This document shows, piece after piece, positions 40,949-56,861 of a DNA stretch of 64,000 nt (the first letter of the stretch is position 1; each line of letters opens with the position of its first letter). Position numbers and translations under genes: made by a program. The DNA comes from Luteitalea sp. Lineage in GTDB: Bacteria; Acidobacteriota; Vicinamibacteria; Vicinamibacterales; Vicinamibacteraceae. The notes under the pieces were generated by a model. The model saw nothing but the letters and a program-made list of their open reading frames with translations. It was not told where the DNA came from and did not search any database. Location of the stretch: NCBI GenBank assembly GCA_009377605.1, contig WHTT01000032.1:1-64000 (forward strand), given 5' to 3'.

Positions 40949-41235
40949 TGCTGATGCCCTATCCGGCTATGCGATTCTGCAGCTCCTGCGCACGTGCCTG
41001 CAGCCGCGTCGCGTGAAAATCCGTTCGGTTCTGCAGGGCAGCCCGAACCTAGCACAGCCCTCCGCGGACGCGCCGGTGCCGGGACTGCGCAGAACCACGC
41101 GATGTGTGCGGTACGCTCTCGTGATTACTTGGACAATCCTACAGCACAGCACTTGGGCCAGAATGAGGAGACGCGCCTTGACCGCGGCGAGCACAGGCGT
41201 ATCATCTCGCTGCCGCCGACTGACCGAACCGCTAG

Positions 41236-42651
41236 GTGAATACGATGAGACTACTCAACCGTATAACTCTCAACATCCTATTACTAATAGGAGCGTTTCA
41301 CATCGCGGCGGCTGAAGGCCGGTTCGTCCAAGAGCATCAGACATCACCTAACATCATTCTTCTGGTAACCGACGATCAACGGTGGGATACGCTCGGAGCT
41401 TATGGAAATGCTGTTATTCGGACTCCGAATATCGATCGACTCGCCGTGGAGGGCGTTCTCTTCGAGAACATGTTCGTGACTACCTCCATCTGCGCACCGA
41501 GCCGGGCAACGATCATGACCGGTCAATACCCGAGCCGCCATCGTGTGCATGATTTCAAGACAAGCCTGACCCGCGAACAACTGCAGCAAACGTATATGGG
41601 TCAGCTGAAAGACGCCGGATACGAAATTGGATTCATCGGCAAGTGGGGGGTTGGCACCCCGCCGGAAGATTTCCTGGATTATGACAAGACGTTTCCGGGA
41701 CAGGGTCAATATTTTCATCAGATCAATGAGATCAATGGAGAAGAGCGTCATCTGACCGGTCTGATAGGCGATCAGGCGCTTGAATTCTTGGATCAAAGCT
41801 CCTCTGAAATGCCGTTCATGCTGTCCATTAGCTTCAAAGCGGCTCATGTTCAGGACTCCTATGACGTCAGCGGCGATCTTTATCAATACGATCCGGCCCT
41901 GAGCGATCTCTATCGAGATGTCGAGATCCCGATGCCGGAGAAGTCCGATCCGAAATACTTTGAGCAACTGCCGGAGTTCTTGAAGAACTCGGAGAACAGG
42001 GCGCGTTGGGCGGTTCGTTTCTGGGGGCCGGAACGAGCGCAGGAAAGTCTGAAAGGCTATTACCGCTTGATCAGCGGTGTGGACCAGCAGGTCGGCCGCA
42101 TTCGAGAAAAGCTAGAAGCCAAGGGTCTGGCTGAGGATACCATCATCATCTTCACTTCGGAGAACGGGATGTTCATGGGGGAATATGGATTCACGGGCAA
42201 ATGGTACCCTCACGAAGAATCCCTTCGGATCCCGTTGATCGTGCATGATCCGCGGCTCGAAAGATCTCAGCGAGGTCGAAGGCTCGACGAAATGGTCCTG
42301 ACGCTGGATATGGCGCCAACGATTCTGGACTTGGCAGGTGTCGACAACCGGGCAGCCATGCAAGGGCGCAGTCTGGTCCCGTTGCTCGATGATGAGAAGG
42401 CAGAGTGGCGCACGGAATTCTTCTACGAGCATCTGTTCGAGCATCCCAAGATTCCTGCCACTGAAGCGATCAGAACCGAGCGCTGGAAATATATCCGGTA
42501 TGTCGATCAGGATCCGATATATGAGCAGCTATTTGATTTGCAGACCGATCCGAATGAAGTAGAAGACCTGATGCTCACGGACGGGCACGACGAGACAAAA
42601 GAAGAAATGCGCCGCAAATGGAAAGAGTGGCACGCGAAGGTGCGGGAATAA
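41236..42651 (+). CDS. Type I sulfatase, secreted, low-G+C gene
   Basis: A 471-residue arylsulfatase-family enzyme with a signal peptide (LLNRITLNILLLIGAFHIAA). Metal ligands are in IILLVTDDQRWDTLGAYGN, and the formylglycine motif is CAPSR with Cys86 (counted from GTG 41236; an ATG at 41245 is an alternative start). FIGKWGVGTPPEDF and IIIFTSENGMFMGEYGFTGK supply further active-site residues. It would cleave sulfate esters from extracellular glycans after maturation by a formylglycine-generating enzyme, which is not in this window. Codon use is visibly more AT-rich than in all neighbours, with many AAT, GAA and ATT codons. This suggests acquisition from another lineage. The ADOP gene starts 18 bp downstream. 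Confidence 0.92.
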   Translation: MNTMRLLNRITLNILLLIGAFHIAAAEGRFVQEHQTSPNIILLVTDDQRWDTLGAYGNAVIRTPNIDRLAVEGVLFENMFVTTSICAPSRATIMTGQYPSRHRVHDFKTSLTREQLQQTYMGQLKDAGYEIGFIGKWGVGTPPEDFLDYDKTFPGQGQYFHQINEINGEERHLTGLIGDQALEFLDQSSSEMPFMLSISFKAAHVQDSYDVSGDLYQYDPALSDLYRDVEIPMPEKSDPKYFEQLPEFLKNSENRARWAVRFWGPERAQESLKGYYRLISGVDQQVGRIREKLEAKGLAEDTIIIFTSENGMFMGEYGFTGKWYPHEESLRIPLIVHDPRLERSQRGRRLDEMVLTLDMAPTILDLAGVDNRAAMQGRSLVPLLDDEKAEWRTEFFYEHLFEHPKIPATEAIRTERWKYIRYVDQDPIYEQLFDLQTDPNEVEDLMLTDGHDETKEEMRRKWKEWHAKVRE

Positions 42652-42669
42652 CGGATCGGAGGAGACGTC

Positions 42670-45171
42670 ATGGATGCGCTCGTGCGCGATGTGAGGCAAG
42701 CCCTCCGGCTGTTGGCCGGCAATCGCGGTTTCGCAGCGGCCGCGCTAGTCACGATTGCTCTTGGCGTGGGCGGCACAGCGGCCGTGTTCTCGGTGGTTTA
42801 TGGCGTGCTGCTACGCCCCCTACCGTATCCGGCGCCGGAGCGGCTCGTGCGGCTGTGGGAAGTGCATCCGGGAGCCCGCGCCCCGATTCCAGGCGAGCGT
42901 CTCAGTCATCTGACGTATCACGCATGGTCGCGGTCGTCAGAGAGCCTGCAGGACATCGCGGCCTTCCACGGCGCTGATTACACTGTAACGGGACTCGGAG
43001 ACACACAGCGATTTCGCGGCACGCGGGTGACGCCCTCGTTGTTCCGTGTGCTTCGCGTGTCGCCCGCTCTGGGCCGCTTCTTCAGCGAGGACGACGCGAG
43101 AGAGGGGGCAGCGCCGGTCGTGGTGCTCGGACACGCCATGTGGCGTGAACGCTTCGGTCGCGATCCCGCGGTTCTTGGGAGGACGCTCACGATCGACGAT
43201 GAGGATCATCGGATCATCGGGATCGCACCGCCTGGTTTCGCGTTCCCGCAACGGGAAGTTGGCCTGCGCGACGACCGGCGCGAGATCACGTTCTACACGC
43301 CGCTCGCCGTCCCAAAGGTGGAACCAGAGGCAAACACGATTCACGTCGTCGGCGCCATCGGGCGGCTGAAAGCCGGCGTGACCATGGCGCAAGCCGAGGC
43401 CGAGGGCACGGCGTACGCCCGAAGCGTCGAGCGCCCTTGGGTTGCCGACATGCAGTTCAGCAAGGGAGGGCCGGTCGAGGCACGGGTCCGCTCGATCGTG
43501 GACCAAATGACGATGAGCGTGCGGCCCGCGCTGCTCGTGCTGGCGGCGGCAATTGGGCTGGTACTGTTGATCGCCTGTGCCAACGTGGCAAACCTGTTCC
43601 TGTCGCGAAACTCTGACCGCGCACGCGAGCTGGCTGTTCGCGCCGCGCTTGGGGCGGAACGCGCGCGACTAATACGGCAGCTCCTGACCGAGAGCCTCGT
43701 GATCTCGCTCATCGGCGGTGTCGTGGGCATGTTCCTCGGATGGGCGCTTACCGCCACCGTGCCGCTGCTGGCGCCAGCGGACTTCCCGCGCCTCGAGGAG
43801 GTCCATGTGGACCTGTGGTTCCTCACCGTCGCCGCCCTGGCAGCCGTCTTCGTTGGCGTGGTCTCCGGCGCCACGCCTGCGTTCCGGAGCTCGCGTGTCG
43901 ATCTGTCCGCGTCGATGCAAGCCGGCGGTGCACGCAGCGTCGGCACCCCGGGCGCACGTATGCGCCGGGCGCTTCTCGTGATCGAGGCCGCGCTGGCGGT
44001 TGTGCTGCTCGTCGGAGCGGCGCTCCTCGCACGCAGCTTCGTCGAGCTCGTCCAGACGGATGCGGGCTACGACTCGGCGAACGTGCTCACGGCCGATCTC
44101 CACTTGAGTGAAGCCGCCAACACTCGAGAGGACGCAGAAGAGGAACAGGATGCGCGGATGTCCCAGCTCACGATTTCCACCTTGGAGCGCTTACGCGCGA
44201 TACCGAGCGTGCGCGCGGCTGGTGCCGGCACCATGGCGCCGTTTGGCGGCGCGATCTCTAGCTCCGGCTTCGACCTGCCGGGAATGACGACGGCTGATGG
44301 CAAGGGCGTGAGAGCGCAAGCCCACCATGCCGTGATCACACCCGGTTACGCGGAGGCCCTGGGCATGCGGCTAACCGAGGGTCGGTTCATCCGGGACCAG
44401 GACATGACATCGCCCATCTGCGCGATGCTGGTGAACGAGACGTTCGCGAAGACCTACTTCACCGATGGCAAGCCGGTGACCGGCCGGAGGTTCGTAGGCA
44501 TGTTCCCAAAGTGGTTCGGAAGGGATGACGCCGTCGTCGAGGTCGTCGGTGTCGTGGAAGACGTGTCGCCTGCGGCGGTGGATGCACCGCCGTACCCGCA
44601 CATCTATACCGCGTACGGCGACGGTATGAATATCGGGGGCACGATCATCGTGAAAGCAGAGCGCGATCCAGCGTCGATCGCGCCGCTCCTGCGGGGAGTC
44701 GTGCGGCAACTGGAGCCCAACGCGACGCTCAATCGGCTGGGGCCCTTGGCCGCCAAGATGTCCGCGTCGGTCGGTGAGCCACGCTTTGCCATGTTCGTCC
44801 TCGTTGCGTTCGCGGTACTGGCATTAGCGCTGGCCAGCGTCGGCCTGTACGGCGTTCTCTCCTACAACGTCGCGCAGCGCCGCCGCGAGATCGGGGTGCG
44901 CGCCGCCCTCGGCGCGACGCGTGGTGATCTCATCAGGATGGTGCTCCGTGAGGGGCTCACCGTCACAGTGCTTGGCCTGCTGGTGGGCATCGCCGTCGCG
45001 GCCTTCGCCACTCGAGCGATGGCCAGCATCTTGTTCGGCGTAGCGCCACTGGATCAGGTGGCGTTCAGTCTCGGTGCGCTCCTGCTCTTGGGCGTGGCGT
45101 GCGCCGCCTGCCTGATTCCTGCACGCCGCGCGGCGGGCATCGATCCCGCCGAGGCGCTTCGCGCGGAATGA
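42670..45171 (+). CDS. ADOP-family ABC permease (no prefix domain)
   Basis: An 833-residue member of the ADOP family. The first helix region is IALGVGGTAAVFSVVYGVLL. The first periplasmic domain has GIAPPGFAFPQREVGL, the central helices IACANVANLFLSRNSDRARE, and the C-terminal cluster LYGVLSYNVAQRRREIGVRA. The ATG is preceded by GGAGGAG, giving an unambiguous start. The upstream sulfatase ends 18 bp before it on the same strand, so they may be co-transcribed although their base composition differs. No ATPase is adjacent; the transported substrate is unknown. Confidence 0.92.
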   Translation: MDALVRDVRQALRLLAGNRGFAAAALVTIALGVGGTAAVFSVVYGVLLRPLPYPAPERLVRLWEVHPGARAPIPGERLSHLTYHAWSRSSESLQDIAAFHGADYTVTGLGDTQRFRGTRVTPSLFRVLRVSPALGRFFSEDDAREGAAPVVVLGHAMWRERFGRDPAVLGRTLTIDDEDHRIIGIAPPGFAFPQREVGLRDDRREITFYTPLAVPKVEPEANTIHVVGAIGRLKAGVTMAQAEAEGTAYARSVERPWVADMQFSKGGPVEARVRSIVDQMTMSVRPALLVLAAAIGLVLLIACANVANLFLSRNSDRARELAVRAALGAERARLIRQLLTESLVISLIGGVVGMFLGWALTATVPLLAPADFPRLEEVHVDLWFLTVAALAAVFVGVVSGATPAFRSSRVDLSASMQAGGARSVGTPGARMRRALLVIEAALAVVLLVGAALLARSFVELVQTDAGYDSANVLTADLHLSEAANTREDAEEEQDARMSQLTISTLERLRAIPSVRAAGAGTMAPFGGAISSSGFDLPGMTTADGKGVRAQAHHAVITPGYAEALGMRLTEGRFIRDQDMTSPICAMLVNETFAKTYFTDGKPVTGRRFVGMFPKWFGRDDAVVEVVGVVEDVSPAAVDAPPYPHIYTAYGDGMNIGGTIIVKAERDPASIAPLLRGVVRQLEPNATLNRLGPLAAKMSASVGEPRFAMFVLVAFAVLALALASVGLYGVLSYNVAQRRREIGVRAALGATRGDLIRMVLREGLTVTVLGLLVGIAVAAFATRAMASILFGVAPLDQVAFSLGALLLLGVACAACLIPARRAAGIDPAEALRAE

Positions 45172-49744: not shown

Positions 49745-50854
49745 CTATCGTGGTTCGTCGTCACTCAATGGTGTATGCCGTACTGCGCGTTCCACCATCC
49801 GCCGAACCTGGTTGTTCATCTGCAATGGCACCAGCGCTACGCCGGGGTGCAGCGTTCTGTAGACGCGGAAGATCTCATCAGCGAAAGCTGGTCCGATGGC
49901 ATCAATACCCGTGAAGTCGAATAGAACTTCCTTGAATTTAGATAGCCGACCAAGCACGCGCTTCGCCTGCGATCGAGATACGAGTGGTCCCGATGCCTGC
50001 TCGGCCAGTTTAATGACGACACGTGTCCGGCTAAACGCGTAATCGTCCTGTGGCACCGCGTAATAGTCGAAGACCTCCTGAAGTGTCTGTTTCGAGGTCG
50101 GTGCTATTTGCATGGATACGGACGTTCCCTTCATCGGATCGTGCCGATCCTCGATAAGCCAGTCCTCCTGGTCCCTCCGATGGGTCAAGAACAGCTCACC
50201 TGAGAGAATCGAGAACTTGTCAAAGACTCGTGACGTGAAGAATACGCCCTCGCCTGTGTGATGGAGCTCATCCGTCGTCAGCTTGCCCTTCGACAGCTCA
50301 AAAACCGCTTCACGCTGATGCTCGAGATTCAGTTCTTCTTGGATCTTCCGAAAGATCCCAATTCCGATGTCGCGGACCTGAATCTCGACGGAATCGGGGC
50401 TCTTCTTCAAAGTGAGGAGCATCCGCGGCGATTCAGAATGGTCAACAACATTGTTGACGATTTCTGTGAATCCGTAATGGCAGATATCGAGGACATTCTT
50501 GCGGAGACCCGACAGAAACGGTTCGGCAAACTCCTGCCAGATCTGATGTTCCTCGGTTTGCTTGGAGACAGGAAAGGCGGCGTGCTTCTCAAACGCCAAC
50601 AACTCATATCGTATGTTTCTAGTTCGACCTTCCCGCTTGAGAACACCCTTTCCAACAAGCTGCTTTAGGTGGTAATGCGCAGCCTGTCGGCTGATACCGA
50701 ACCGCTCCGACACCACCCGCCCAATATCGACTGGATGAGCCTGGACTTCTTGAATGATGAACGCGCGAATCGCATCTCGTTCGCCTCGTCTCGACACCTC
50801 CCTATTGTCAAATGGACGGCCAGTATTGTCAAATAATATTACATTGTTTGTCAA
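49745..50854 (-). CDS. Winged-helix, GHKL ATPase and STAS-like (DUF4325) regulator
   Basis: Up to 369 residues in three parts. An N-terminal winged helix (VVSERFGISRQAAHYHLKQL, VGKGVLKREGRTRNIRYELL) is followed by an HSP90-like ATPase with the N-box YGFTEIVNNVVDHS, the G1 box VRDIGIGIF and the G2 segment HHTGEGVFFTSRVFD. The C-terminal domain (SRSQAKRVLGRLSKFKEVLF, DFTGIDAIGPAFADEIFRVY) is STAS-like. This joins DNA binding, an anti-sigma-type kinase fold and its antagonist fold in one chain. There is no phospho-histidine domain. The start is unclear: TTG 50854 or GTG 50797; three direct repeats fall between them. Base composition is visibly AT-richer than neighbours, suggesting transfer. Targets are unknown. 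Confidence 0.82.
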   Translation of the reverse strand: MTNNVILFDNTGRPFDNREVSRRGERDAIRAFIIQEVQAHPVDIGRVVSERFGISRQAAHYHLKQLVGKGVLKREGRTRNIRYELLAFEKHAAFPVSKQTEEHQIWQEFAEPFLSGLRKNVLDICHYGFTEIVNNVVDHSESPRMLLTLKKSPDSVEIQVRDIGIGIFRKIQEELNLEHQREAVFELSKGKLTTDELHHTGEGVFFTSRVFDKFSILSGELFLTHRRDQEDWLIEDRHDPMKGTSVSMQIAPTSKQTLQEVFDYYAVPQDDYAFSRTRVVIKLAEQASGPLVSRSQAKRVLGRLSKFKEVLFDFTGIDAIGPAFADEIFRVYRTLHPGVALVPLQMNNQVRRMVERAVRHTPLSDDEPR

Positions 50855-50856
50855 AT
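50804..50856 (-). promoter_or_regulatory. Three phased direct repeats, putative operator of the HTH-ATPase-STAS gene
   Basis: ATTGTCAAAT at 50804-50813 and 50825-50834, and TTTGTCAAAT at 50847-50856 (plus-strand reading; ATTTGACAAT towards the gene). Steps are 21 and 22 bp, two helical turns. Each copy contains TTGACA on the minus strand, so they could also act as -35 elements. They overlap the extreme 5' end of the longest reading frame. Confidence 0.65.
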
Positions 50857-50901: not shown

Positions 50902-52941
50902 TCAACTACCGCTCTTCTCGACCCAGATCGGACTCGACCACGCCATCTCATTGCTTGGATATGCCCAGGCTCCTCTGGAGAACTCATCCACCTGAAAGAC
51001 TCTAACGTAGTAGAAGCTGTCTTCGGTGAAGTCGTCGTCGATGTGCTCGAACGAGCCCGTTTCGGAATCCGGTTCGTGCTGCCAAATAGTTCGATAGCCG
51101 CGACTGTCGTGCTTCACGATCTCCACGGTCTGGATCTTGTTGGTGCCCGCCACCCTGACAACGATTTGGGGGGGCTGATCGGTGGCGTATTCCTCGCCCA
51201 TATGGTGGCCGTCCGCGGTGACGCTGAGCAAGATGCGCACGCCGGAGGTGGCATAGGTGCGCCGGGCATCGAGGGCTTCCCAGATCGCCTCGCGTGTGTT
51301 GGACGATGTGAGCACGCCAACCAAGCCACCCGCCTGCTGAGTGGACGTCGTGTAGTTGTTGGCGCCGGGATGACCGATGTGATTATCGGAGGAGCCAATC
51401 ACCCCGATGCGGTGTCCTCGATGCCAGGCGTATTGGTACGACCAGGGATTGTCGACGCCTTCCTCGAAGCGCTGTGGCTCGTCTCCCGGCTGTAGGAGGA
51501 AGCGGTTGTTCCACAACGAATAGATCTCGCCCACGCGGCGATACTTGTTGCTGACCTGGCTCCAGATCCTGTGGTCTGGTTGTGCCCACATCACGTGGGG
51601 AATCATGATGACCGGTTTGCCTTGCTCGTCGAAGGCGGCCCAGATGTCGCGTTGCGTCGGATAGTCGCGCTGGTTGAACGCTTTACCACCCCGCTCGGGA
51701 TAGACGATCACGTGATGACCCTCCGAGGGCGCGGCGGTCCACTCGTAGGCGAAGAACGTCGTGAAGCGGCCGGGAACGTTGAATGAATCGGTGATCTGCT
51801 GGCTGCGCTCCCAGACCTGATCGGTGAACGCCGGGGCGTCGTGCTCGGCGGAGGACCCGAAATCGAGGCGAATGACATCGCGGAGGTAGGCGTAGGCGGC
51901 TTCCGCCGACGTGAAGTGACCACGATGATCTCCACCGGCCCCGGTGGTGGTGAATCCTTCGTGGTTGGTGCCGCTCCCGGTGTGGAAGTGGCTCTCGCCG
52001 AAGTAACGCCGCAGCCGCGGCAGCGCGTCGGAGACCTCCGAGTAGTTGCTGCGGCCATGCAGCTCGCCGGCGGTGACGTCGATGCGCTGAAATCCCAACG
52101 TCCCGTACTTGACGTTCTCGAAGACGTGCACGCCCGCGTCGGCTTCGGTAAAGGTATAAGGGCGGGGAAGCTCGATCCGAGGATCGGTGCTCGTGAGCGT
52201 GACGATGCCCCGGTAGCCGGTGGCGCGATTGCCAAACTGGTCCAGCAGGACGACGGCGAGATCGAACTCGGTATCGCGTTGCAGTTCCGCGGGCGCGACG
52301 GCGAAGAGCGTGCGAGCGGTCTGAGGAGCGATATCGACGGTCGGAAGCTCGGAGATCGATTGCCAGGGCTCCTGAGCGTTGCCTCTCCATTCCACTCGGA
52401 CGGCAAGATCCCACGTGAGACTTTGAACGATGCCGACGTAGTCGATCTCGATGCTCTCCCCACCATCGAGCGAGGCGTCCATGACAATGCACTCGATGAT
52501 GCCACCTGTCGCGCCACCAAGGGTGATGACGATCTTCGCGCCGTTCGACGCACGAGCCCGCACATACCCGCGTCCTTCTGGCGTGTTGGTTTGAGGCTGG
52601 TCCCAGTAAGACGGCGCGGTTTCGAGATACGCGACCGGCAGCTCGATCCGCACTCCACCACCCGCCACAATAGGCTGCTCCCCAACACTGAGCTCGAAGT
52701 GGACCTGCTGATGACTGCCCGCAAGCGCGCGCCGTGGATGAACGGTCATCCGTGGCTCCACGCCGGTGTCTCGCGCCTGGCCGCTGACCGAGGTGGTAGG
52801 CAAGATGCGCCACCCCCACAGCAACGGTGATAGGCCGAGCCACGCCATGAACGATCGCCGCGATGGTATCCAAGCTGTGTTCCGCTCGCTGGGTGAGCTC
52901 ACCGTCCCTACGATGCGAGAGAGGAAGCGCATGCTATTCAA
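50902..52941 (-). CDS. DUF3604 metallohydrolase-like protein, Tat-exported
   Basis: A 679-residue protein. The N-terminus has a twin-arginine signal (SRRSFMAWLGLSPLLWG). An immunoglobulin-like region is followed by the DUF3604 domain with PHP-like metal-ligand motifs: GESHFHTGSG, GSSAEHDAPAFTD, VIMIPHVMWAQPDH and GVIGSSDNHIGHPG. DUF3604 proteins are exported and often sit with sulfatases in glycan-use loci; their reaction is not established. The start overlaps the stop of the DUF6259 gene by 8 bases, so it is the last gene of the four-gene operon beginning with the receptor at 60296. Confidence 0.87.
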   Translation of the reverse strand: MNSMRFLSRIVGTVSSPSERNTAWIPSRRSFMAWLGLSPLLWGWRILPTTSVSGQARDTGVEPRMTVHPRRALAGSHQQVHFELSVGEQPIVAGGGVRIELPVAYLETAPSYWDQPQTNTPEGRGYVRARASNGAKIVITLGGATGGIIECIVMDASLDGGESIEIDYVGIVQSLTWDLAVRVEWRGNAQEPWQSISELPTVDIAPQTARTLFAVAPAELQRDTEFDLAVVLLDQFGNRATGYRGIVTLTSTDPRIELPRPYTFTEADAGVHVFENVKYGTLGFQRIDVTAGELHGRSNYSEVSDALPRLRRYFGESHFHTGSGTNHEGFTTTGAGGDHRGHFTSAEAAYAYLRDVIRLDFGSSAEHDAPAFTDQVWERSQQITDSFNVPGRFTTFFAYEWTAAPSEGHHVIVYPERGGKAFNQRDYPTQRDIWAAFDEQGKPVIMIPHVMWAQPDHRIWSQVSNKYRRVGEIYSLWNNRFLLQPGDEPQRFEEGVDNPWSYQYAWHRGHRIGVIGSSDNHIGHPGANNYTTSTQQAGGLVGVLTSSNTREAIWEALDARRTYATSGVRILLSVTADGHHMGEEYATDQPPQIVVRVAGTNKIQTVEIVKHDSRGYRTIWQHEPDSETGSFEHIDDDFTEDSFYYVRVFQVDEFSRGAWAYPSNEMAWSSPIWVEKSGS

Positions 52942-55276
52942 TTGTGGTCTTGGTGAAATCGAGGATGTACGCGCCCAGCGGTGGCAGCTCGATGTTCACC
53001 GAGGCGCGGCCATTCTGAAACTGCCCGATCTCCTCGCGGCCCTCCTCCCCGATCCGATTGATGCGCCCGCTCTCTGGCAGGCGCTGCTCGGTCGCCGTCA
53101 GCGTGAAGCGCATGGGTACCGGTTTGTCGGTGATGTTGGCGACGGCCACTCCAACGTCTCCGTCCTTTGCGAGCCAGGCGCCGCACTGTACTGCGGGGAA
53201 GGAATTGTGCCAGGCGTTCGCTGCGCTGTCCTGGCCCGCATAGATTGAAAGCCGGAGAAGATCCGTCTTCACCTCAGGGACGTCGGTTCGGGGTGGGCGG
53301 AGGAAGCTGCCGTACAAAAGATACTTGAGCCCTTGATTCCGAAGACGCGCCAGTCGGAGCAGGTACGCGATCTGTTCGCCGCGCTCCTCGAGCTGCGACG
53401 GGAGGAAGTTGGCGATCATGGGCTGCAGCCCCCAGACGAACGCGCGCGCCTGCTCGAGGAGAAACTGACCGTTGTACCGTGCATCGAGCAACTGCAGGGC
53501 GTCGTTCGGAGCGGTTTCGGCCGGCCACAGATCGTCGTAGGGCGGCGCCGTGAGCGAAGAGTAGTTTCCGAAGCTGACGCCGTAGTCGTGGTACACGGCT
53601 TGGAAGAACGGAATGACCTCCCAGTCGCCGCCCGGCTCCAGGTACCGCTCGCGGCTCACCTGCAGCGTGAGGAACAGATCCAAGTGAGGCAGCCACGCTT
53701 CTCCGCAACCCTCGCCAGCCAGAATCAGGTCACGCGCACCCTTTGCACGCGTGCGGATGTCGCTCGTCAGCTTGGCGAACCCCGGAAGCCAGTAGTTACC
53801 GCCACCCGGAGGATGCCCGTGGTCCTGGCTGTAGCAGAGCACGCTGGAACACGCCTGATCCATGTACACGCCGTCGACGTCGTATTCCTGAACGGCCGCC
53901 TCCGCGAGCCCTGCATACTTGTCTCGCCAAAAGCTGGTCGCCATGCACATGGTCTGGCACTGAGCCTTGGTGAAGGTGTTGTAGACCTCGGACAGGAGCT
54001 CGCCATCGCGGTCGCGCACGGCAAACCGTTCCGCGTTCTCCGCCTTCCAACTGGGCGCCGGTGAGCACCAGAGGCGCTGGTTCATGTACACGATTGCACG
54101 CAGGCCCACCTCGTGTGCCTTTGCGAGGGCACGCCGGAAAGGTCCCGCCCCCTCGCGCGGCGGCAGGTACTCTGGAAACCCGTGATCGTAGGCGCAACCG
54201 TGCCACCAGTGCCAGAAGACGCGGACGGGAAGCCCCAGCTTCGAGCGGAGGAGCGCCGCAGGACCGAGGACGCCAGCGGACCTGCCTCGGTTCCACTCCC
54301 ACAGCCCAGTCTCGAGCGCAGATGTCGGGACGAGCCCTCGAGCCAGTCGGCTCTCACGACACCACGCCTGCTCGATGCCCCAGGCGCGATAGCGTTCTGC
54401 CGCCGTGACCCAGTCGCCGGCGAAGGTGCCGATGAGCGCACCATAGGGCAGGGCGTAGCGACCGGAGCCGACCTCCGCTTGGCCCGGCGCGTTGCTCATC
54501 TCGTAGTTCATCATGCCGGCGTCATCGGCCCAGAACGCAAACGTCTTCCAGAACGCGGCGGTATCGTCACACGCGGTGTAGAGCCCGGGCCCGTCGTGCC
54601 CATAGAGCGCCAGGCACTGTAGCGAGAGCGCGCCGGGGTAGGCCCACTCCCACCTCTGCCGGCCCCCGCCCTCTCGGATACCGAGTCGTCGCGGATTCTT
54701 CGCCAACTGTCCCATCCACTGCGGCACCGCGAGTCGTTCGTTGCCGAGGTCCGGGATGCCGACCACGCGAGGGAAGCGGACCCTGTCAAGCGCCAGATCG
54801 CCGACGTTCTCCAGGCTGATGTTCCACCGGCTCATCGGCGTATCTGGTTCCAAGCTGACCGATACCTCCACACGGAGATCGGGTGCCGCCTTCAAGTCGA
54901 AGTCTTCCCAGATCAACGTGACACTGTGTTCCTCCGACTGCTCCGAGCGGAACGCGCTAGCCCGCGCGGGCGCGATAGTCTCCTGCTCGTCAGCGGCGGC
55001 GATGTTCAGCGCCCAGACATCACCGCCCTGGGTCGCCCCAGCGACGAAGTCCTGCTTCGTGGCCTCGTCAAACAGGCGCAGCAGTCGCCCGTTTCTGCCA
55101 TCGAATGCCAGCTCCAGGTGGCCGTTGGATAGGCGTATCGTGGGCGGGTCCGGCTGCTGCACGGACCACAGCCGACTGAGCGCCCCCAGCGCAACGCCCG
55201 CGCCGGGAACGCTGGCGAAGAAGGTTCTGCGCGGAACGCCGGGGCCCTCGTCCTTGAACATCTTGTGTCTCTTCAT
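52934..55276 (-). CDS. DUF6259 glycoside-hydrolase-like protein, Tat-exported
   Basis: A 780-residue protein with a twin-arginine signal ([20 protein letters not shown]) and an N-terminal beta-sandwich ([20 protein letters not shown]). A TIM-barrel-like section follows, with [36 protein letters not shown] and [13 protein letters not shown]. The aspartate in GVYMDQ and the glutamate in LAGEGCGE are in the places used by retaining glycosidases with such barrels. The domain corresponds to DUF6259, thought to be glycoside-hydrolase related but without a proven substrate. Its ATG overlaps the sulfatase stop by four bases (ATGA). It probably acts on a sulfated glycan or glycoside together with the sulfatase. 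Confidence 0.82.
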
Positions 55277-56832
55277 CGGCTAACTTCTGGATACGGGTCC
55301 TTCTCTGGAACCTTCAGCTCTTCTCGCAGGCTCTTCAGCGCTGCCAGCAGCTCGTCTTGCACGTCCTCGTACGCGGGGTCGGCGTAGCGGCTGTGCATCT
55401 CCATGGGATCGGCCGCGAGGTCGAACAGCTCCCATTCGTTGTCCTCGTAGTAGTGGATCAACTTGTGGCGCTCGGTCCGAACGCCGTAGTGCCGCACAAC
55501 GCCACCAGCGCCCGTGGGCTCGTTCTCGTAGTAGTGGTAGTAGAACGTCCGCCGCCAGTCGGACGGCGCGTCACCGGTCTCGAGAATCGGGACCAGGCTG
55601 CGGCCCTGCATATCGTCCGGAACAGCAGCCCCGGCGATTTCCAGCAGCGTCTCCGGGATGTCGATGTTGGAGACCATGGCGTGGCTCTCCGAGCCGGCCT
55701 GGACGAAGCCGGGCCAGCGCACGAGCAATGGCGTCTTGAGCGATTCCTCGTACATCCAGCGCTTGTCGAACCAGCCGTGCTCGCCGATATAGAAGCCCTG
55801 ATCGGAGGTGTAGACGACAATGGTGTTGTCGGCGAGCCCCGTCGCGTCCAGCCAGCGCAGCACGCGCCCGACGTTGTCGTCAAGCGAATCGACCGTGCGC
55901 AGATAGTCCTTGATGTAGCGCTGATACTTCCAGCGAACGAGATCCCGGCCGATGAGGCTCGCCTCCTGGAACGCTGTGTTCTTGGGCTCGTAGATGGCAT
56001 CCCACACCCGCTTCTGCTCGGGTGTCAGTCTCCCGTAGCTGTCCATGTACGCCTGGTAGAGGCGGTCTCCCTTGTCGGGCATGATCTTCAGATCGAATCC
56101 GAAGGTCATGTGGCGATCTATCTCCATCTGTGAATTGCGCGCGGGACTGGCGCGGCCGCTGTAGTCGTCGAACAGGTTGTCTGGCTCTGGAATCGTCATG
56201 CCGTCATAGCGCGTCAGGTGCTTGGGACCGGGCATCCAGTTCCGATGCGGGGCTTTGTGTTGGTACATCAACAGGAATGGCTTGTTCGCGTCCCGCTTCT
56301 TCTGGAGCCAGTCGAGCGCGAGGTCGGTCGTGATGTCGGTGACGTAGCCTTCATGCTGCGTGCGGCCGTTTGAGGTCAGAAAATCGGGGTTGTAGTAATC
56401 GCCCTGCCCCGGCAGCACCTCCCAGTAATCAAAGCCTGTGGGATCGCTTTGGAGGTGCCACTTGCCGACGAGGGCCGTTTGGTAGCCGGCCTTCTGCAGC
56501 AGCTTTGGCATCGTCTGCTGCGAGCCATCGAACGGCGTGCGATTGTCGAGCACGCCGTTGAGATGGCTGTACTTGCCCGTCAGGATGACGGCGCGACTGG
56601 GCGCGCAGATCGAGTTGGTCACCAGTGCATTGCGAAACAGCATCCCTTCGCGCGCGAGGCGGTCGAGGTGAGGCGTGTGGTTGATCCGCGAGCCGTAGGC
56701 CGACATGGCTTGATACGCGTGATCGTCTGCGAGGATGAACAGAATGTTCGGCCGAGATACCTGTCGGTCCGGCGTCCTCGGCGCGCCAACCGCGAGGGAG
56801 ACGAGCACGAGGCAGACGCAGAGAGACTTCAT
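55273..56832 (-). CDS. Type I sulfatase, secreted
   Basis: About 519 residues. A signal peptide ([20 protein letters not shown]) is followed by metal-binding [18 protein letters not shown], the formylglycine motif CAPSR (Cys76) in [38 protein letters not shown], and [20 protein letters not shown]. The GFDYW and [19 protein letters not shown] segments resemble N-acetylglucosamine-6-sulfatase-like enzymes, but the substrate cannot be fixed. ATG 56832 is chosen because the signal peptide starts there; a GTG at 56844 is in frame. It lies second in the operon, 29 bp after the receptor's stop. Base composition matches its neighbours, unlike the other sulfatase at 41.2 kb. Confidence 0.92.
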
Positions 56833-56861
56833 GAGGAGTGACACAGGAGCCCACCGTGCGC

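Follow-up and report, generated by a model that had tools for sequence, protein, structure and literature searches.

The window analyzed here, a 64,000-nt stretch of Luteitalea sp. DNA (contig WHTT01000032.1), carries a monocistronic gene that is probably a solitary, self-contained autoregulatory switch. Judged from sequence, its product would act through its own winged helix (wHTH) on tandem sites over the promoter of its gene, with autorepression as the simplest mode, and the ATPase and STAS-like domains that it also contains would serve as the gate. Comparison of homologues strongly supports the architecture, the conserved, non-coding repeat arrays, the tracking of the recognition helix by the repeat letters and the finding, with exact patterns, of no tandem sites elsewhere. 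The gene and its parts are as follows.

49745..50797 (-), gene for the 350-aa wHTH-GHKL-DUF4325 protein, monocistronic, GTG start
50798..50803 (-), putative ribosome-binding site GGGAGG, from the sequence
50597..50791 (-), winged-helix DNA-binding domain, residues 3-67 (AF2 secondary structure, Pfam)
50651-50689 (-), recognition helix, about residues 37-49, motif SRQAAHYHL (helix table)
50090..50599 (-), SpoIIAB-like GHKL ATPase domain, residues 67-236 (alignment, AF2, fold match)
within 50090..50599 (-), ATPase boxes: N-box E112/N116; D143-G145-G147; G182/G184
49778..50029 (-), STAS-like DUF4325 domain, residues 257-340 (Pfam, alignment, AF2)
49970-49978 (-), invariant S274-R275-S276 (alignment)

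A winged helix, a GHKL ATPase and a STAS-like domain are joined in one chain

The original prediction had placed these three folds in a single protein lacking a phospho-histidine domain. Pfam bears this out across about 50 homologues with the wHTH-GHKL-DUF4325 architecture, found in many bacterial groups and phyla; 42 loci came from one scan of genome contigs. Among 49 aligned members, DUF4325 was detected in all 49 (E <= 0.001), HATPase_c_2 in 48 and HATPase_c in 38, while the Pfam scan of the window copy and the members gave no HisKA/DHp domain. For the window copy itself, DUF4325 (PF14213) matched with an E value of 3e-11 (43 bits vs a gathering cut-off of 23), HATPase_c_2 and HATPase_c fell just under the Pfam cut-off and the wHTH matches (HTH_20, MarR_2) were weak; MarR_2 matches reach 3.5e-8 in other family members.

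AlphaFold2 modeled the full protein with a mean pLDDT of 86.7 and a pTM of 0.72. The best fold match for the ATPase domain was the anti-sigma factor SpoIIAB (Z 15.4, rmsd 2.4, 133 residues aligned), and E112, N116, G145 and G147 are invariant in the family alignment, with D143 nearly so. The middle domain therefore has both the fold and the N/G boxes of GHKL ATPases of the SpoIIAB/RsbW type; E112 and N116 correspond to the residues that SpoIIAB uses for catalysis and to bind Mg. Folded alone, the C-terminal domain gave the RsbS-like 2vy9, a stressosome STAS protein, and SpoIIAA 1h4z as top rows (Z 6.6, 87-92 residues aligned), from a weak model (pLDDT 65) with unrelated folds within 1 Z. Pfam describes DUF4325 as STAS-like, and the predicted STAS character of this domain is thus supported by Pfam and, weakly, by fold.

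The gene starts downstream of the repeats

An ORF of 369 aa opens at TTG 50854 and one of 350 aa at GTG 50797. The sequence indicates that the true start is almost certainly GTG 50797, which follows GGGAGG, because the start codons of homologues align at this position. All three operator-like repeats consequently lie upstream of the gene, and the earlier view that they overlap its 5´ end has to be corrected. We also rejected a reading of the repeats as coding sequence (FDN codons), an objection the original prediction had itself raised: the 22-bp spacing breaks the frame, the starts of homologues align with the GTG, and in most homologues stop codons fall between repeats and start, leaving the sites outside the open frame. 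The repeats are non-coding.

The AT-richer composition noted earlier was confirmed, with a GC content of 0.536 for the gene and 0.447 for the upstream stretch vs 0.646 for the whole window, and the gene ranks in the lowest 1.4% among 1,053-bp windows. The suggestion of an acquired module is consistent with, though not proven by, this low GC content and the patchy occurrence of the family (a homologue in 14 of 297 genomes in a survey of the phylum). A second GC dip lies at window positions 41001-43000 (0.54-0.59 vs 0.65 for the window). Upstream of the gene, 50902-56844 (-) holds long co-directional ORFs of 679, 780 and 523 aa that are unrelated to the present finding, the 523-aa ORF being sulfatase-like by eye.

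Direct repeats with a 22-bp period are conserved upstream of homologues

The three near-identical repeats described earlier at spacings of 21 and 22 bp were located as three copies of TTTGACAA.

50848..50855 (-), operator-like repeat 1, TTTGACAA, contains TTGACA (-35-like)
50826..50833 (-), operator-like repeat 2, TTTGACAA(T), with GACAAT -10-like relative to repeat 1
50805..50812 (-), operator-like repeat 3, TTTGACAA(T), starting at its 5´ side some 15 nt upstream of the GTG

The three copies fall within 51 bp, with start spacings of 22 (repeat 1 to 2) and 21 (repeat 2 to 3). Across the window TTTGACAA was observed four times vs 0.45 expected, and no shuffle reached four; the fourth copy, at 50217-50224 (-), is within the gene's coding sequence. 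Consecutive repeats read TTGACA-N18-GACAAT and TTGACA-N17-GACAAT, matching the -35/-10 consensus at 10 of 12 positions, and protein bound at the repeats would be expected to cover the promoter.

Upstream regions of homologues were scored for a 9-base direct repeat with at most one mismatch, 20-23 bp apart, in the 44 loci left once near-identical upstream DNA had been removed. Such a repeat is present in 37 of the 44 (shuffles: mean 4.7, maximum 9), a count that is not one of independent events since related loci are still included; seven loci lack one at the threshold used. The distance histogram has a sharp peak at 22 bp (30/44, 1.5 expected) and an echo at 44 bp (16/44, 1.2 expected). Homologues therefore do not generally lack the repeats, the outcome that would have counted against the original prediction. 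The conservation it had foreseen for TTTGACAA holds for the geometry but not for the letters, which are clade-specific (TTGACAAT, CTTTACAAT, CCTTTAAGAAA and also TTGACG). The TTAAG class combines the 22-bp direct spacing with a last inverted copy at a fixed 25 bp, and the same geometry is seen in L036, a locus of the TTTACAA class with the letters TTTACAAT. TTGAC repeats are carried even by relatives at 31-35% identity, which points to an old arrangement.

The position of the sites bears on the sign of the proposed regulation. In some loci the site arrays stretch upstream for at least 100 bp, and upstream tandem sites would also suit cooperative activation, by which the protein could turn on its own promoter and form a bistable on/off switch. 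We regard such positive autoregulation as unlikely, however: in most loci the proximal site is 8-40 nt from the start codon and overlaps or follows the likely promoter, so that repression fits better than activation.

Repeat letters change with the recognition helix

The repeat letters appear to change in step with the recognition helix, an association that we consider suggestive. Helix [ST]RQA pairs with TTGACAA or TTGACG and helix [ST]RQT with TTTACAA, while TTAAGAA pairs mostly with [ST][PAL]QA. Exceptions include L036 (SRMA, TTTACAA), L005 (STQA, one TTGACAA) and L045, whose TRQA helix comes with a single TTTACAA plus a TTGTCAA. A tree built from the ATPase and STAS parts shows about two to three switches of operator class, too few independent events for a statistical test of the association.

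These comparisons also bear on whether the repeats are mere core promoter elements (-35 TTGACA, -10 GACAAT/TACAAT), or sites of an unrelated host regulator, to which the protein does not bind. The 10/12 match with 17-18 nt spacers in the window is what such an explanation would predict. It leaves unexplained three to four copies with a 22-bp period in many phyla, repeat letters that do not resemble a promoter (e.g. CCTTTAAGAAA), the 25-bp inverted copies, the co-variation with the recognition helix and the restriction of the tandem pairs, which exact patterns did not find elsewhere in genomes. We thus think this explanation improbable.

Tandem sites were found only upstream of the gene itself

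In the window's own 6.8-Mb genome, exact tandem pairs occur only before this gene. Exact tandem patterns were matched in 14 of 23 other genomes, always before the homologue; such scans miss degenerate or single-site targets, and in 9 of the 23 genomes they missed the homologue's own operator. Across the own genome and the 14 genomes with pattern matches, no tandem-site regulon was found with exact patterns. Single TTTGACAAT sites number eight in the own genome, including two at this gene, which is about chance level (the expectation being estimated); the six other sites have no shared target, and the own genome has no inverted TTGACAA pair. Because the tandem sites were found only before the gene itself, the locus looks like a self-contained genetic switch. 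Together with the conserved repeats and the letters tracking the helix, this supports, at the level of sequence, the autoregulation through its own winged helix that had been proposed.

The protein could be suspected of controlling neighbouring genes or a defence locus and of regulating itself only incidentally, since defence or mobile families are represented among a few of the neighbours (SoFic, PD-Lambda-1, PDC-S06, HEC-09, integrase and Mob_Pre, with few PADLOC matches) and relatives occur on viral contigs. Across 54 loci, however, there is no conserved neighbour gene beyond local synteny, the neighbours are mixed and mostly unrelated housekeeping genes, and exact patterns found no tandem sites before other genes, leaving this explanation with little probability. 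Downstream gaps at the 54 loci are mostly >50 bp. A plasmid- or phage-borne family was likewise rejected, as tblastn gave no match in plasmids or phages (a positive control worked for plasmids). Relatives of the three-domain protein are present on IMG/VR viral contigs (L081-L097), and two of them, L081 and L087, also have TTGACAA/TTTACAA repeats upstream.

The canonical phospho-acceptor serine is missing from nearly all members

At the position of the canonical SpoIIAA S58, assigned by eye from sequence, nearly all members read IGQAFADE or IGPAFADE, and the window copy has GPA where the phospho-serine would stand. Among the members displayed, only L004 and L032 have a Ser at a GQA/GPA position. 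Aligned DUF4325 copies from outside the family but in the same phylum (L106, L114, L118 and L119) have Ser around the acceptor site. With the acceptor serine absent from nearly all members, SpoIIAA/CapS-style phosphorylation at the S58-equivalent site is unlikely from the sequence. Nucleotide-driven conformational gating or phosphorylation at the invariant S274/S276 may take its place.

The latter would make the protein a one-chain, CapK/CapS-type phospho-switch, in which the ATPase phosphorylates a STAS-like domain (e.g. at S274/S276), either its own or that of an adjacent chain, and so takes apart the complex on DNA, with DNA damage or ssDNA as possible triggers. The GHKL and STAS-like folds resemble those of SpoIIAB/SpoIIAA and CapK/CapS, the kinase-type E112/N116 are invariant, as are S274 and S276, and CapK is reported to phosphorylate a STAS serine, freeing the CapS wHTH from DNA (PMC13373217). 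We nevertheless give this reading only a modest chance: the S58 position is GQA/GPA in nearly all members even though split DUF4325 proteins retain Ser, S274 and S276 sit at the first STAS helix rather than in the acceptor loop, and there is no link to immune operons.

A proposed nucleotide-gated autorepressor

Our preferred model remains a solitary autoregulatory switch. The N-terminal winged helix would bind the tandem sites, as 22-bp direct repeats and, in some clades, an additional 25-bp inverted pair. As these sites overlap the gene's own promoter, the protein would set the level of its own production, and the simplest way would be autorepression. Within the chain, the SpoIIAB-like ATPase and the STAS-like domain may form a nucleotide-driven gate. 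A signal would shift either the nucleotide state (ATP or ADP) or the way in which ATPase and STAS-like domain touch, and the resulting change in how dimers or tandem arrays assemble on DNA would free the promoter. We infer that the protein binds the repeats, that it represses and does not activate, that it is gated and that it answers to a signal.

If the protein were strictly an autorepressor and had no further target, its purpose would be unexplained, which raises the question of why a gene would be retained with itself as its only visible target. One possible, though doubtful, answer is a one-gene element that targets only its own DNA, a mobile switch standing alone and directed against stress or phage, for which derepression of the single wHTH-ATPase-STAS protein would be the whole response, with an ATPase-STAS gate that works without phosphorylation and a tandem helical-repeat assembly on DNA. 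The autoregulatory switch, if correct, would condense a partner switch into a single chain of DNA-binding, ATPase and STAS domains, present across many phyla and with a readable operator code. It would offer a minimal system in which to study direct control of DNA binding by a SpoIIAB-like ATPase, and the three natural operator/recognition-helix pairs would lend themselves to specificity tests.

Comparison with known systems

A literature search whose coverage excludes most subscription journals returned no study of the single-chain wHTH-GHKL-STAS architecture. MarR/ArsR one-component autorepressors share the winged helix and sites over their own promoter (binding being predicted here), but are small dimers that sense ligands, occupy palindromes and lack both ATPase and STAS domains. 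Histidine kinases differ by their DHp/HisKA domain, of which the Pfam scan found none in the present family. The SpoIIAB/SpoIIAA and RsbW/RsbV partner switches share the ATPase fold (SpoIIAB, Z 15.4) and a STAS-like domain, C-terminal here (1h4z, Z 6.6, weak model), but consist of separate proteins that target a sigma factor and have no DNA-binding domain, and SpoIIAA has the phospho-serine.

A two-gene form is seen in split pairs in which a stand-alone DUF4325 gene (120-132 aa) adjoins a GHKL-like ORF (288-360 aa), as in L111, L112, L114 and L115; these differ from the present family in being two genes. The Francisella phage KIRK genes Fhv_0046/Fhv_0047, encoding a 293-aa hypothetical protein and then a 112-aa DUF4325 protein (PMC7924643), are possibly such a split form. 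L118 is a distinct 491-aa open frame in which a GHKL-like motif is fused to a DUF4325 domain with retained serines (ISSSFADE).

The nearest published system is CapK/CapS, a pair of immune-operon regulators with HTH-STAS-GHKL and STAS-wHTH architectures (Chambers et al., EMBO J 2026, PMC13373217). CapS is an autoregulating wHTH-STAS repressor and CapK a GHKL kinase activated by ssDNA; the system has TTAA palindromes and a conserved STAS serine and adjoins immune operons (PMC13373217). The present family shares GHKL kinase-like, STAS-like and wHTH domains and, as predicted here from sequence, would also share a response through a GHKL-STAS pair and wHTH autorepression at its own promoter. It differs in having one chain, in the order wHTH-GHKL-STAS, rather than two proteins, 22-bp direct repeats rather than TTAA palindromes, no acceptor serine at the site where CapK/CapS conserve one, and a solitary position with no conserved neighbour rather than one next to immune operons. 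The family resembles a member of the same broad kind, yet is neither a CapK nor a CapS.
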